From NCBI GenBank assembly GCA_022821085.1, contig JAJEEG010000006.1, positions 1,323,330-1,387,329 of the forward strand: DNA of 64,000 bases, in the 5' to 3' direction. The stretch is from Candidatus Latescibacterota bacterium. GTDB taxonomy: Bacteria > JAAXHH01. This document shows, piece by piece, positions 21,568 through 30,698 of the stretch. The notes under the pieces are model-generated. The model had not been told where the DNA came from. It made no database searches and saw nothing but the letters and a program-made list of their open reading frames with translations. Each line of letters starts with the position of its first letter. Position 1 is the stretch's first letter. A program made the translations under genes and the position numbers.

Positions 21568-21647
21568 TCGGACGTCTGACGCATGCCGCGGATGTCTGAC
21601 GCATACAGCGGATATCTGACACATACCGCGGATGTCTGACGCATATC
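21568..21647. repeat. 20-base tandem array, four units
   Basis: Units start at 21568, 21588, 21608 and 21628 (type GCGGATGTCTGACGCATACA). The second and fourth differ at two bases. The array is just upstream of the aldo/keto reductase start and could lie in its promoter or leader. There are no spacers, so it is not a CRISPR. Confidence 0.9.
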
Positions 21648-21751: not shown

Positions 21752-23065
21752 TCAGAATCCGTCGTCTCCGGTCCGGACCGGGGAACGCTGACCGATCAGT
21801 CGCATGCGTTCATCCAGCAGCCGCTTGAGTTGGTTCAGCTTGATCCGGTGGGCCGCGAGCTCCCTTTCGTGTTCCAGGATCATCTGCTCTATGAGACGGG
21901 GATCTTCACCCAACCGGGGATCGTCCGGACCCTCTTCGGTGAGCAAGGAAGAAGCGGGAGCGGGAGCGGCTAGCGGTTTCGGTTGAGACGCGAGCACCGT
22001 GTGCGCGGTATGTTCCACATCCCCCCTGAGGTACTTGATTTCGATCCGGGTGCCCACGGGAAGCGTGGTCACGAATTCGGCGAGGACGATGGGATGGCTC
22101 ATGGAGACGCCGTTCACGGCCTGAAGCACGTCGCCCTTGCGCAGACCGATCCGCATGGCGGGACTGTCGGGATATACATCCGAAACGACCATGCCTTCCA
22201 CGGCGCCCAGCATGATATTGCGGTCGCCGCCGATGGTGACGCTTTCCCAGATCTTCTCCACGTGAACGCCCAGCCAGCTCCGGCGGATCTCGCCGAATTC
22301 GATGAGCTGCCGGGCAAAGGTCTTCACGCGGTTGATGGGTATAACCGCTATCAGGCCCCTGTCTTCACCGGATCCGGAATTGACCGAGCCGGGCGCCAGG
22401 GCCTGATGGGGATCGGCCACGAGACCGAGCAGGCGGCCGTTCGTGGAGAACACCGCCCCGCCCGAGTAGGCGGAACCGACCACGGCGCTGACCTGGATCA
22501 TGACGTCCTCTTCCCGCAGCCCGTTCACGATGCCCGTCGTCATCGAGGACGGAAAGCCGTGGGCGTTGTTCAGTACCAACGCCCAGGACCCCGGACGGAC
22601 GTCATCGGAATTGCCCAGGCGCGCTGTATGGGTCTCCAAACTGTCGACGCGGATCACGGCGATATCGGAGAGCCGGTCCACCCCGACGAGATGGCCGCGG
22701 CGATACTGGCCGTTCCGAAAGTTCACCAGGATGTCGTGGGCATGGTCCACGACGCCGGCTGTCGTAATGATGAATCCGTCCCGGTGAAGGACCACGCCGG
22801 TCCCGATGGAGCGTTCCCAGTCCGTGAAAGTCTGCCCGTTCACCGTATTGATGAACTTGCGCTGTACGATCACGCTGGCGACCGTCGGCTCCACGCGTTC
22901 GACGAGACTGACGATTTCCCGCTCGAGGCTATGAAGGTACGAGGTGGTCTGCGCATGGGCCCGGCGATCGTCGTCCGGGTGCACGAGACAGGCCAGTAGC
23001 GCGGCCCAAATCAGGGGCCGGAGGCGGCCGGTCCGGGGAAGGAGGTTGGAATGGGAACCTTGCAT
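21752..23065 (-). CDS. HtrA/DegP-like PDZ protein lacking the catalytic histidine
   Basis: A 437-residue exported protein. A signal-type hydrophobic segment lies at residues 17-28. The trypsin-like domain covers about 50-215, one PDZ domain about 265-355, and a helical, probably coiled-coil tail 390-430. Aligned by eye to DegP, GFIITTAGVVDHAHD places G104 where the catalytic His (TNNHVV) belongs. Asp134 (LSDIAVIRV) and Ser201 (SAYSGGAVF) are kept, but the oxyanion loop GNSGG has become AYSGG. It is thus probably an inactive sensor or scaffold, or uses a nearby His (H108, H110). It starts 6 bases after the anti-sigma gene, as third gene of a stress-response operon. Confidence 0.85.
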   Translation of the reverse strand: MQGSHSNLLPRTGRLRPLIWAALLACLVHPDDDRRAHAQTTSYLHSLEREIVSLVERVEPTVASVIVQRKFINTVNGQTFTDWERSIGTGVVLHRDGFIITTAGVVDHAHDILVNFRNGQYRRGHLVGVDRLSDIAVIRVDSLETHTARLGNSDDVRPGSWALVLNNAHGFPSSMTTGIVNGLREEDVMIQVSAVVGSAYSGGAVFSTNGRLLGLVADPHQALAPGSVNSGSGEDRGLIAVIPINRVKTFARQLIEFGEIRRSWLGVHVEKIWESVTIGGDRNIMLGAVEGMVVSDVYPDSPAMRIGLRKGDVLQAVNGVSMSHPIVLAEFVTTLPVGTRIEIKYLRGDVEHTAHTVLASQPKPLAAPAPASSLLTEEGPDDPRLGEDPRLIEQMILEHERELAAHRIKLNQLKRLLDERMRLIGQRSPVRTGDDGF

Positions 23066-23071
23066 GGTCGA

Positions 23072-23968
23072 TCAGAACGATATACGGACGCGCTTCAGGG
23101 GAGCGGTCGGACCCGACGCCGCCGGTGTGTCGGTCGCGCCAGGCACGCCGATTGCATTCCGCGTATCGCGAAGTTCAGCGGTGCCGACGGTTTGCAGCAG
23201 GTCTTCCGGCGCCGGTTGATCCGGATCGCCGCCAGCCACCAGGTCCCGGCCGAAGGCCTCGTCGAACAGAGATGGATCGAGGCGCATGCCCGTACCCGCC
23301 GAAACGAACCGGATCCCGTGGATCATCGGCTCCATGGTCCTGACGGTGAGGATACCCGGTCTGTCGCCGGTAATGCGGTTTGGGGTATATGGGAGACTGG
23401 TTGCAGCGGGTGGGGGGGGATTTGTTGCCTGTTCCGTGTTCATCGGTGGATTGACTGCCATGTGCGGCGCAAGTTCCCGTTCCAGGGGAAAGGGCGAAAC
23501 AGGATCGGGCGGCGCGAGTTCGGGTTCGATGGGTGTCGGAAGGGAAAAGGCCATCGAAGGACCCGCAGACGAATCGGAGCTTTCCGTCGGGCCGGCCACG
23601 AAGGAGAAACCACCAATCACGGTTATGGTCAGGATCAGGCTGGTCGCGAATACCAGTTGAACGGGTCGCTGCCGGCTGAGTTCGCCCAGTTCGGAAAAGG
23701 CTGCCGAAACGCGTTTCAACCAGGAGGAAGCGTACAGCTCGCGGGCAACTTCCCGGTTCAGCAGGTTGCCGAGCTGTTGTTCGAACATCGGCCGGGGGGA
23801 CACGGCGGGAAGACTCTTCACGGCCCGCACGGCGCTTTCCATGTCCTTTATCCTGAGCCGGCACCGGGGACATCCGTTCAGGTGAAATCGAAGCTCGTCT
23901 TCAGTGGCCTTCGACAACTGGCCGTCCAGGTAGTCCGACATCTGCCGCTCGTATCCACTGCAATCCAA
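23072..23968 (-). CDS. Zinc-finger anti-sigma factor, membrane-anchored
   Basis: A 298-residue single-pass membrane protein. The N-terminal zf-HC2/ZAS domain starts MDCSGYERQMSDYLDG and has the zinc motif H29-x3-C33-x2-C36 (HLNGCPRC) with C3. A transmembrane helix is at about 103-125 (VFATSLILTITVIGG), followed by a Pro-rich periplasmic part of 170 residues. AGGAGG at 23978-23983 touches the ATG at 23977, too close to work, so TTG 23968, 9 bases on, is preferred; it gives the standard Met-x-Cys opening. It should hold the adjacent ECF sigma factor inactive. Confidence 0.85.
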   Translation of the reverse strand: MDCSGYERQMSDYLDGQLSKATEDELRFHLNGCPRCRLRIKDMESAVRAVKSLPAVSPRPMFEQQLGNLLNREVARELYASSWLKRVSAAFSELGELSRQRPVQLVFATSLILTITVIGGFSFVAGPTESSDSSAGPSMAFSLPTPIEPELAPPDPVSPFPLERELAPHMAVNPPMNTEQATNPPPPAATSLPYTPNRITGDRPGILTVRTMEPMIHGIRFVSAGTGMRLDPSLFDEAFGRDLVAGGDPDQPAPEDLLQTVGTAELRDTRNAIGVPGATDTPAASGPTAPLKRVRISF

Positions 23969-23977
23969 AACGTACAT

Positions 23978-23983
23978 CCTCCT
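23978..23983 (-). promoter_or_regulatory. Shine-Dalgarno deciding the anti-sigma start
   Basis: AGGAGG directly follows the sigma-factor stop (TGA 23985-23983, sharing its last base). Spacing is 0 to ATG 23977 and 9 to TTG 23968, which supports the TTG. Confidence 0.55.
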
Positions 23984-24630
23984 CAAAGTATCTCTACCTG
24001 CCACTGTCTCAACATTTCCTGCAGTCTCAGCCGTCCCCGGTTGACCCGCGACTTGACGGTTCCCGTCGGACAGCGGAGGATCTCGCCGATCTGCTCGTAT
24101 GAAAGCTCCTCGATGTCACGCAGCACGATAACGGACCTGTACTTGTCCGGCAGCTGATCGATCGCGTGCTGTATCGCCCGGCCCAGTTCGTTCTGCTCCA
24201 GGTGATCGCCGGGGCCCGCGCTCGTATCCGGCAGATCGATGCCTTCCCGCGTGCTGTTCTCGTGAGGCGAAGCGTTCAGGGAGAAGAACTGGCGGCGTTT
24301 CCGCTTGCGCAACTCGCTCCGGGCGAGATTGAGCGCAATGGTATAGATCCAGGTGGAGAGATTGGAGATCGCCTTGTAGTTGTGGCGGTTCCGGTAGACC
24401 CGCAGGAACGTCTCCTGCACCAGGTCTTCCGCGCATTCCATATTGTGGACCATGCGGTAGATGCAGTTGTACAGCCTGGTACGGTATCTCCCGACGATGA
24501 CCTCGAATGCCCGTATATCATCCCGCTGGACACGGACGAACAGCACTTCGTCCGACAGGGTCAGTTCGTCCAGCACACCGGACTCGATATCGGTGACCTG
24601 CACCGCGTTTGTGGAGGTATTTTCGGCCAT
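23983..24630 (-). CDS. ECF sigma factor (RpoE-like)
   Basis: A 215-residue RNA polymerase sigma factor of the extracytoplasmic-function group. Region 2 is seen as AFEVIVGRYRTRLYNCIYRM then CAEDLVQETFLRVYRN and LSTWIYTIALNLAR; region 4 has LPDKYRSVIVLRDIEELSY then EQIGEILRCPTGTVKSRVNR. The linker between them is long. ATG 24630 has GGTGG upstream; ATG 24645 is also possible. It is transcribed from the strong promoter at 24790-24818 with its anti-sigma factor and an HtrA-like protein, an arrangement like rpoE-rseA-degP. Likely role: envelope-stress response. Confidence 0.92.
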   Translation of the reverse strand: MAENTSTNAVQVTDIESGVLDELTLSDEVLFVRVQRDDIRAFEVIVGRYRTRLYNCIYRMVHNMECAEDLVQETFLRVYRNRHNYKAISNLSTWIYTIALNLARSELRKRKRRQFFSLNASPHENSTREGIDLPDTSAGPGDHLEQNELGRAIQHAIDQLPDKYRSVIVLRDIEELSYEQIGEILRCPTGTVKSRVNRGRLRLQEMLRQWQVEIL

Positions 24631-24789
24631 TTTTTGTCCACCCATACCGCGTTATACGCCGCGTGGCGGATTCGGTTTCAAAAAACACGCCTCAACGTCC
24701 GGCTTCCAGCCCGGTCGGGCCGCACCGACCGTCCAAACCGGCCGATTCGACTCAAATTCGACTGAACGCCATAACGCTATAATGTTTTG

Positions 24790-24818
24790 AATATAGAAAT
24801 TCGGCGCGTCCGTGTCAA
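24790..24818 (-). promoter_or_regulatory. Sigma-70-type promoter of the sigma/anti-sigma/HtrA operon
   Basis: Read leftward, TTGACA (24818-24813), exactly 17 bases, TATATT (24795-24790), 5/6. It sits in A/T-rich DNA just after the XPB stop codon and gives a leader of about 150 bases before the sigma gene. Confidence 0.75.
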
Positions 24819-28967: not shown

Positions 28968-30698
28968 ATGTCGATCCTGAAGAAACCCAAATACGCCATC
29001 CTGCTGGTCTTTGTCGCGACCGGGTCGTTCCTGCTCGGCAGCGCGGCCGACAGGACGATCCATGCGGCGGACAACATCTTCTCGAGCACCAGGCTGCTGA
29101 TGGGCGTGCTCAACCTGGTCAACGACAACTACGTGGAGGAGGTACAGCCCGGTGAGTTGATCTACGCCGCGATCGACGGCATGCTCGAGGTGCTCGATCC
29201 CCATTCCAGCTTCCTGAGCAAGGAAAGCTTCGCCGAAATGGGCGAGCGCTTCAGCGGGAAGTTCTACGGAATCGGGATCGAGTTCGACGTACTGGATGGA
29301 TTCCTATACGTGATTTCCGTGATCGATGAATCGCCGTCGGAAGCGGTAGGACTGCAGTCCGGGGATCGTATCATCAGGATCGACGGTGAATCGGCGATCG
29401 GGATCAAGCACGACGAGGTGAGGCAGAAGCTGCGCGGGGAGAAGGGGACCAGGGTAGACGTAACCATCGAACGGCCCGGCGTCGAAGATCGGTTCGAAGT
29501 GACGATTACCCGGGACAGCATACCCATTCGCAGCGTCAGGACGTCCTTCATGCTGGAAGACCAGACGGGATATATCCAGTTGATCCGGTTCGCCAAGACC
29601 ACTTCGCGGGAACTGGAGACTGCCCTGGACAAGCTTCAGCAGGAAGGCATGGAGCGGCTGATACTCGATCTGAGAGGCAATTCGGGGGGATACCTGGACC
29701 AGGCGGTCGAAGTGTCCAGCAAGTTCATTCCCGAAGGCCGCGTAATCGTCAAGACCATGGGAAGGAACCGGGGTTCCAATCAGACGTTCAAATCGATAAG
29801 CGGCGTAAACCACCGCGAAATGCCCCTGGTGATCCTGCTGGACCACCGTTCCGCCTCCGCTTCCGAGATCGTGGCGGGCGCCGTCCAGGACTGGGACCGG
29901 GGCGTAATCGCCGGAACCCGCAGCTTCGGCAAGGGCCTCGTTCAGACCCTCTTCGCGGAGCCTCATCTGACGGACGGTTCCGCGCTCAAGCTGACGACGG
30001 CCAGGTACTACACCCCGAGCGGACGGATGATCCAGCGAGACTATAAGAACAAGTCCTTCCAGGAATACGTCGAAGGCTCGTTCAGCGAAGCTGGCGAGGC
30101 CGGGCAGGAAGCGGGGCCCGATAAGGAAGAGGATCTCGAGGATCTCGAGGACCCGGCGGACCGCACGGACCGGACTGACCACGCGTACGAGTCGGACCGC
30201 ACGGACCCGGAATACGGCGCGGACCCGGCGGACCGTACGGAATTCACCACCGCCGCCGGGCGTACGGTTTATGGAGATGGCGGCATTTCTCCCGACGTCG
30301 TGATCCCGGCCCCGAAACGCACATACCCCTTCGTAATCGGCAAGTACAGGGGATGGGTGCCTTTCGACCGGGCCTGTTTCGAATTCGCCAACGCCTACAG
30401 CGTTTCCCAGGCGGACCGGCAGGAACTCAGGGATGATTTCGACGTCTTCCTGCGGGATTTCCAGGTAGACGAAGCGATGCTGGAAGCGTTCAAGGTCCAG
30501 GTCCGGGACTCGGGGATATCTTTCGCCGACGAGGAGTTCAACCACGACCGGGACGTCATCGAACTCCAGCTGAAGCGTTCGCTCGCACGGAATCTCTGGG
30601 GTGACGAGGAAGCCAGCCGCGTAGCCGCGGCCGGTGACGAGCAACTCCAGCAGGCCCGTCAGTTGTTTTACTCTCACGAAATGCTGGTACAGCAGTAG
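28968..30698 (+). CDS. ctpA: S41 family C-terminal processing protease (CtpA)
   Basis: A 576-residue periplasmic protease. Residues 8-22 are a signal/anchor helix. A PDZ domain lies at about 95-180 and the S41 domain at 190-360, with the catalytic dyad Ser297 (SASASEIVAGAV) and Lys322 (SFGKGLVQT). Residues 370-425 are an unusual Asp/Glu/Arg/Thr-rich repetitive segment, after which a C-terminal domain of about 150 residues continues. It is about 150 residues longer than typical CtpA, as in the FCB-group forms. It should trim or degrade envelope proteins. GAAGGAG precedes ATG 28968. A DUF4175 gene follows after 86 bases. Confidence 0.92.
   Translation: MSILKKPKYAILLVFVATGSFLLGSAADRTIHAADNIFSSTRLLMGVLNLVNDNYVEEVQPGELIYAAIDGMLEVLDPHSSFLSKESFAEMGERFSGKFYGIGIEFDVLDGFLYVISVIDESPSEAVGLQSGDRIIRIDGESAIGIKHDEVRQKLRGEKGTRVDVTIERPGVEDRFEVTITRDSIPIRSVRTSFMLEDQTGYIQLIRFAKTTSRELETALDKLQQEGMERLILDLRGNSGGYLDQAVEVSSKFIPEGRVIVKTMGRNRGSNQTFKSISGVNHREMPLVILLDHRSASASEIVAGAVQDWDRGVIAGTRSFGKGLVQTLFAEPHLTDGSALKLTTARYYTPSGRMIQRDYKNKSFQEYVEGSFSEAGEAGQEAGPDKEEDLEDLEDPADRTDRTDHAYESDRTDPEYGADPADRTEFTTAAGRTVYGDGGISPDVVIPAPKRTYPFVIGKYRGWVPFDRACFEFANAYSVSQADRQELRDDFDVFLRDFQVDEAMLEAFKVQVRDSGISFADEEFNHDRDVIELQLKRSLARNLWGDEEASRVAAAGDEQLQQARQLFYSHEMLVQQ
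30118..30240 (+). repeat. Acidic low-complexity repeats inside ctpA
   Basis: Degenerate in-frame repeats: GAGGATCTC occurs twice in a row near 30130, then several copies of a 12-15 base type containing GCGGACCGCACGGACC. They code for Asp-Arg-Thr-rich sequence between the protease domain and the C-terminal domain. Confidence 0.7.

Follow-up and report, generated by a model that had tools for sequence, protein, structure and literature searches.

The window analysed here, a stretch of 64,000 nucleotides from Candidatus Latescibacterota bacterium (GenBank assembly GCA_022821085.1, contig JAJEEG010000006.1, positions 1,323,330 to 1,387,329 of the forward strand), carries on its minus strand a compact operon for an extracytoplasmic function (ECF) sigma factor, a membrane anti-sigma factor and an HtrA-like protein. 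The sigma factor (23983..24645, 220 amino acids) consists of Sigma70 regions 2 and 4 only (Pfam Sigma70_r2 and Sigma70_r4_2), is 90-97% identical across the genus, and forms an ECF/zinc-finger anti-sigma pair with its neighbour, in which the zinc domain has the pattern Hx3Cx2C. The anti-sigma gene (23072..23977, Pfam zf-HC2) encodes 301 amino acids from an ATG at 23977, placed just after the sigma stop codon, and is followed by the gene for the HtrA-like protein (21752..23065, 437 amino acids, Pfam Trypsin_2 and one PDZ); the gaps between genes are 5-6 nt. The gene order given by the first-pass annotation, sigma, zinc-finger anti-sigma and HtrA-PDZ, was thus recovered from open reading frames and Pfam domains alike. 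Relatives of this genome are metagenome-assembled genomes labelled Gemmatimonadetes, Latescibacterota or Zixiibacteriota, and we therefore regard the taxon as an uncultured lineage.

The HtrA-like protein is built from a putative signal peptide, a Trypsin_2 domain, one PDZ domain and a C-terminal helix. Its N-terminus, judged by eye from sequence inspection alone, resembles a cleavable signal peptide ending AHA-Q. The PDZ domain (21998..22270, minus strand; Pfam PDZ_2/PDZ_6) has an intact carboxylate-binding loop, WLGV at residues 264-267, and is followed by a long helix at residues 389-426 (21788..21901, minus strand) in the AlphaFold2 secondary structure. A model computed from 47 diverse sequences has an HtrA fold, with a predicted local distance difference test score (pLDDT) of 82.7 and a predicted template modelling score of 0.74; an earlier run with just 14 close orthologs was poor (pLDDT 49). 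Foldseek matched the model to DegP, DegQ, AlgW and DegS, the last also with YRF/YQF peptides, with E values down to 4e-27. Pfam, AlphaFold2 and Foldseek thus agree on the trypsin-like domain followed by PDZ that is characteristic of the HtrA/DegP/DegS proteins (Do family, S1C). The His-Asp-Ser triad of that family is incomplete, with Gly104 standing in the His column, and the protein falls below the NCBIfam cut-offs for degP_htrA_DO (179.5 vs 416), DegS (111.7 vs 423) and DegQ (116 vs 756). From these sequence and model comparisons, it is an HtrA by fold, but the triad test places it outside the HtrA proteases.

Loss of the catalytic residues was examined in alignment with 18 active HtrAs, all of which have H-D-S. 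Here G104 (codon 22754..22756) occupies the His column, D134 (22664..22666) the Asp column and S201 (22463..22465, all minus strand) the Ser column, and the oxyanion motif reads A199-Y200-S201-G202-G203, so that the residue numbering proposed earlier for the Gly substitution, the retained Asp and Ser and the AYSGG loop was right. In the model, G104 sits on a helical turn (103-106). The loss is shared by relatives: the sample of the window's own phylum comprised 16 genomes from five genera of one order, with a match in 14, and His is absent from 13/13 readable orthologs, which have Gly or, in another family, Ser. The Asp position has changed to Asn in three congeners and to Ser in two more distant orthologs, and the nucleophile to Thr in four proteins (L008, L012, L013 and L014). 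This is not, then, a lone altered copy in the window. A pseudogene or sequencing error was ruled out, as the orthologs run to full length with no internal stop codon and the ratio of nonsynonymous to synonymous substitution rates (dN/dS) against the window protein is low, at 0.12-0.23 for the mature protein as a whole and 0.09-0.35 for the protease and PDZ domains separately. Low dN/dS combined with varying triad residues points to a maintained protein whose active site has been left to run free.

The same pattern extends well beyond this phylum. Wider sampling was anchored on the sigma factor, and was therefore independent of the presence of an HtrA or of any particular anti-sigma tail; it covered genomes at about one per family together with a deep sampling of one other phylum. 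An HtrA-like gene lies directly 3' of the anti-sigma gene in about 30 domain-wide loci and in 37 loci of the second phylum. Because only the loci of G209 and G340 among the domain-wide set belong to that second phylum, at least three phyla are involved. We could align 67 of these operon-linked proteins, 62 from the wider sample and five from the window's phylum, leaving out the very diverged L183 and L186 and a few incomplete members with columns that could not be aligned. The catalytic His is present in 0/67, compared with 18/18 ordinary HtrAs; its column holds Ser in 40, and Gly, Asp, Thr, Arg and others in the remainder. Asp is retained in 16% and Ser in 60%, G202 is invariant, and the PDZ residues G266, P302, A303, G307 and D312 are retained in 99-100%. 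A tree computed without the triad columns places one branch between the 18 active and 34 operon-linked HtrAs (Shimodaira-Hasegawa-like approximate likelihood ratio 95, quick method) and, with its long branches, is compatible with a single old loss of activity. L183 and L186 are short HtrA-like proteins with barely recognisable active-site regions, and the anti-sigma factors beside them end in LISF.

Might the protein still be a protease, with H108 or H110 as base or by a Ser-only mechanism? The retention of Ser201 here and in most homologs, along with the invariant G202, would be expected of such an enzyme. However, H108 and H110 fall beyond the His column, by four and six residues respectively, and the HAH that they frame becomes HAY, QAD or GAN within the family, which excludes them as the catalytic His. 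No alternative His is conserved: among the operon-linked homologs, none was found at positions 100-107 except for one stray (L176, VVH). In addition, the Asp and Ser positions vary freely, the latter to T, A, G, V, C and M, and the oxyanion loop is AYSGG. We consider residual proteolysis by this protein highly improbable and its catalytic death near certain from the alignments. The suggestion that a proteolytically dead HtrA occupies the place of DegS/DegP is supported by the missing His and the preserved PDZ signature.

What might a dead HtrA with an intact PDZ domain bind? The anti-sigma factor offers a candidate. It comprises a cytoplasmic zinc-finger domain, a single transmembrane helix, a proline-rich periplasmic linker of ~170 residues and a conserved C-terminal tail. 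In the zinc-finger domain (23861..23962, minus strand; H32-x3-C36-x2-C39), C6, H32, C36 and C39 are invariant over 14 orthologs. The anti-sigma factor of another locus, L123, has lost the Hx3Cx2C motif and kept both an aromatic tail (STSIQF) and an adjacent pseudo-HtrA. In the window, the C-terminal peptide GPTAPLKRVRISF is a candidate PDZ ligand, and its last six residues, RVRISF (23075..23092, minus strand), are the most conserved 6-mer of a periplasmic part that has otherwise diverged; in ortholog alignments R296, R298 and F301 never vary within the order. The codons of the tail vary synonymously (CGC/CGT/CGA, ATA/ATT/ATC, TCG/TCT), so that selection acts on the peptide. These same codon changes, and the lack of an overlapping Shine-Dalgarno sequence, led us to reject the idea that the tail is conserved through constraint on the ribosome-binding site of htrA. 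Tails in other loci end in ITF, ISF or VSY.

Across lineages, the aromatic tail and the adjacent HtrA occur together. Anti-sigma factors ending in F, Y or W were found in 28/30 domain-wide loci with an adjacent HtrA vs 1/30 without (Fisher p = 1.1e-13), or in 21/23 vs 1/24 when counted by taxonomic family (p = 4e-10), and in 36 of the 37 HtrA-bearing loci of the second phylum. At these loci an aromatic final residue is rare in the other two proteins, with 1/30 and 0/37 for the sigma factor and 1/29 and 0/35 for the HtrA itself. The tail thus very likely connects the anti-sigma factor with the pseudo-HtrA; by the same comparative evidence, the peptide read by the PDZ domain is likely the anti-sigma factor's own C-terminus, a conserved aromatic ligand of PDZ type, and binding of that tail by the PDZ of the pseudo-HtrA is likely. 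This association also bears on a different account, in which the tail is a mimic of the beta-signal of outer-membrane proteins (OMPs), read by the beta-barrel assembly machinery (BAM) or another PDZ protease, with the pseudo-HtrA only a co-regulated periplasmic chaperone. KRVRISF does alternate hydrophobic residues like the OMP C-termini of the same genome, the linker is perhaps long enough for a far reach, and an S41 protease with a PDZ domain is encoded nearby; yet most of these genomes should encode BAM, RseP and S41 proteases, and the aromatic tail tracks the HtrA-like gene next to it. We therefore judge this account unlikely.

Several observations weigh against tail binding by the adjacent pseudo-HtrA. 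Two anti-sigma factors have non-aromatic ends despite an HtrA (L118, TVTFSP; L177, STAGGL), and in a third locus, from the second phylum (L231), a proper tail is missing and the HtrA is truncated. Conversely, L168 has an aromatic tail (TSY) with no HtrA within 4 kb; its partner may have been lost recently or be encoded at another site. Position -2 of the tail is Ile/Val, whereas DegS/AlgW peptides have aromatics or other residues there. Mapped on the sigma tree, the presence of HtrA switches about seven times, with just two independent pairs on supported branches, too few to give power to a formal test for correlated evolution. Finally, another PDZ protein, such as the DegS-like L032, RseP or the S41 protease, could be the reader of the tail.

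Other proteases in the genome, and the ends of its OMPs, supply the remaining parts of a possible pathway. A DegS-like paralog (L032) has an N-terminal transmembrane anchor, an intact H-D-S triad and one PDZ, and a DegP with two PDZs (L031) is also present, as is an RseP-type protease (L066), the best M50 match in the genome. The C-termini of the genome's Omp85-type proteins are QMF, QAF and ADF; among its TonB receptors, several have VRF, YTF or RHF in this place, and other receptors end differently. About 4 kb from the operon, a tail-specific-type S41 protease with a PDZ domain is encoded at 28968-30698 (plus strand). Proteases of this type act on nonpolar C-termini, and the anti-sigma tail could be another potential target.

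It is tempting to propose how these parts might work together. The third gene of the operon would encode an HtrA-fold pseudoprotease retained for peptide binding, with a PDZ domain that grips the end of the membrane anti-sigma factor (-RVRISF-COOH), giving a complex assembled on this factor in the periplasm. Since the tail resembles an OMP C-terminus, unfolded OMPs that accumulate under stress could compete for the same PDZ with their C-terminal Phe peptides, and the complex would open. The uncapped anti-sigma factor would then become the substrate of a separate, active site-1 protease, for which L032 is a candidate, and the RseP homolog L066 would act after this cleavage to free the sigma factor. 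Pseudo-HtrA would in this way merge the job of RseB, shielding of the anti-sigma factor, with that of the DegS PDZ, reading of OMP peptides, and do no cutting. We consider it moderately probable that the pseudoprotease PDZ holds the anti-sigma tail, that OMP C-termini compete for it, and that cleavage by a separate protease is gated thereby; the physical binding, the competition and the direction of the predicted complex (a shield, not an activator) are what we infer. The first-pass annotation had suggested a sensor that possibly acts by binding peptides rather than cutting them; the comparative evidence supports such a possible binding role, and the sensor role and its direction would follow from the proposed scheme.

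The tail and PDZ data would fit equally well if the dead HtrA were instead an activating adaptor that, possibly as part of a mixed trimer with the active DegS-like protease, holds the tail through its PDZ and presents the anti-sigma factor to be cut. For example, cleavage that depends on MamE also requires the HtrA pseudoprotease MamO, an effect for which the active site of MamO is not needed (PMC4794232), and a DegS-like paralog with an intact triad is at hand in this genome. Co-transcription with the anti-sigma gene slightly favours a brake. An adaptor role, the chief rival to the shield, is in our view a tentative possibility.

The proposal of a shielding pseudo-HtrA can be set beside known systems. 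Like RpoE-RseA-RseB-DegS-RseP of E. coli and AlgU-MucA-MucB-AlgW of Pseudomonas, the system in the window pairs an ECF sigma factor with a single-pass membrane anti-sigma factor, and resembles these pathways further in its HtrA-type PDZ protein and in the RseP homolog of the genome; we class the module as a variant of the envelope stress system of sigma-E type. The PDZ domains of DegS and AlgW bind YQF/WVF C-termini (PMC8545111) and read peptides of the form YxF/WVF at the C-terminal ends of OMPs or MucE (PMC8545111, PMC10202637). In E. coli, RseB acts as a shield for RseA (PMC10202637); each half of the proposed mechanism thus has precedent. Unlike DegS and AlgW, the HtrA of the window operon is catalytically dead and predicted to be secreted rather than membrane-anchored. 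In addition, it is the anti-sigma factor itself that carries the PDZ-type ligand, whereas in the models for DegS and AlgW the ends of OMPs or MucE are read, not those of RseA or MucA (PMC8545111, PMC10202637). An RseB fold was not seen in the HtrA-like protein, in which Pfam finds Trypsin_2 and PDZ only (the genome was not searched for RseB). MamO of magnetotactic bacteria is likewise an HtrA-family trypsin fold that has lost catalysis and been repurposed (PMC4794232); it differs in its metal binding, transporter domain and magnetosome role, and has no sigma/anti-sigma link, and the window protein scores 18.6 against the NCBIfam MamO cut-off of 800. The sigE-rseA-htrA operon of Mycobacterium has the same order of ECF sigma factor, zinc-finger anti-sigma factor and HtrA. 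That HtrA, by contrast, counts as an intact serine protease, and the NCBIfam model for mycobacterial HtrA gives only a weak match to the window protein (69 bits vs a cut-off of 800).

The open papers searched contain no description of an HtrA pseudoprotease tied to an anti-sigma factor, though the subscription literature may mention one; the combination of a dead HtrA with a ligand on the anti-sigma factor itself was found nowhere in them. The data point to an old HtrA pseudoprotease family, spread over at least three phyla and tied to a sigma/anti-sigma pair, and automatic annotation of these proteins as serine proteases would be corrected. Whether they form a widespread class of sigma control, in which the anti-sigma tail mimics an OMP end and a dead HtrA senses stress by exchange of PDZ ligands, seems to us evenly balanced. 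If true, the envelope stress paradigm, in which an OMP peptide binds the PDZ of the same protein that cuts RseA, would have a large branch that assigns binding to one protein and cutting to another.

Two promoters can be proposed for the operon. The "one strong promoter" described previously corresponds to a real sigma70-like motif read from the sequence, TTGACA-N17-TATATT (24790..24818, minus strand), which is kept in most congeners and mutated in L034 and L042. It is not the sole one, as a second, better conserved promoter of ECF type, GAAACC-N15-CGTATAA (24652..24679, minus strand), lies 6 nt 5' of the sigma ATG, a spacing that suggests a near-leaderless transcript. This proximal promoter is conserved throughout the genus as GAAACC-N15/16-CGTATAA, with GGAACC-N15-CGTGTAA in L044, and the ECF pattern is present 5' of the operon in 11/11 congeneric genomes, which suggests autoregulation. 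A search for a regulon with this pattern returned mainly the operon itself and at most three other sites per genome, perhaps chance or coding matches.

The operon is flanked by a gene for an XPB-type helicase upstream and one for an aldo-keto reductase downstream, and the five-gene order is identical in the genus. Between the aldo-keto reductase and HtrA-like genes lies a tandem array (21569-21645) with 3.8 copies of the 20-bp unit CGGATGTCTGACGCATACCG.

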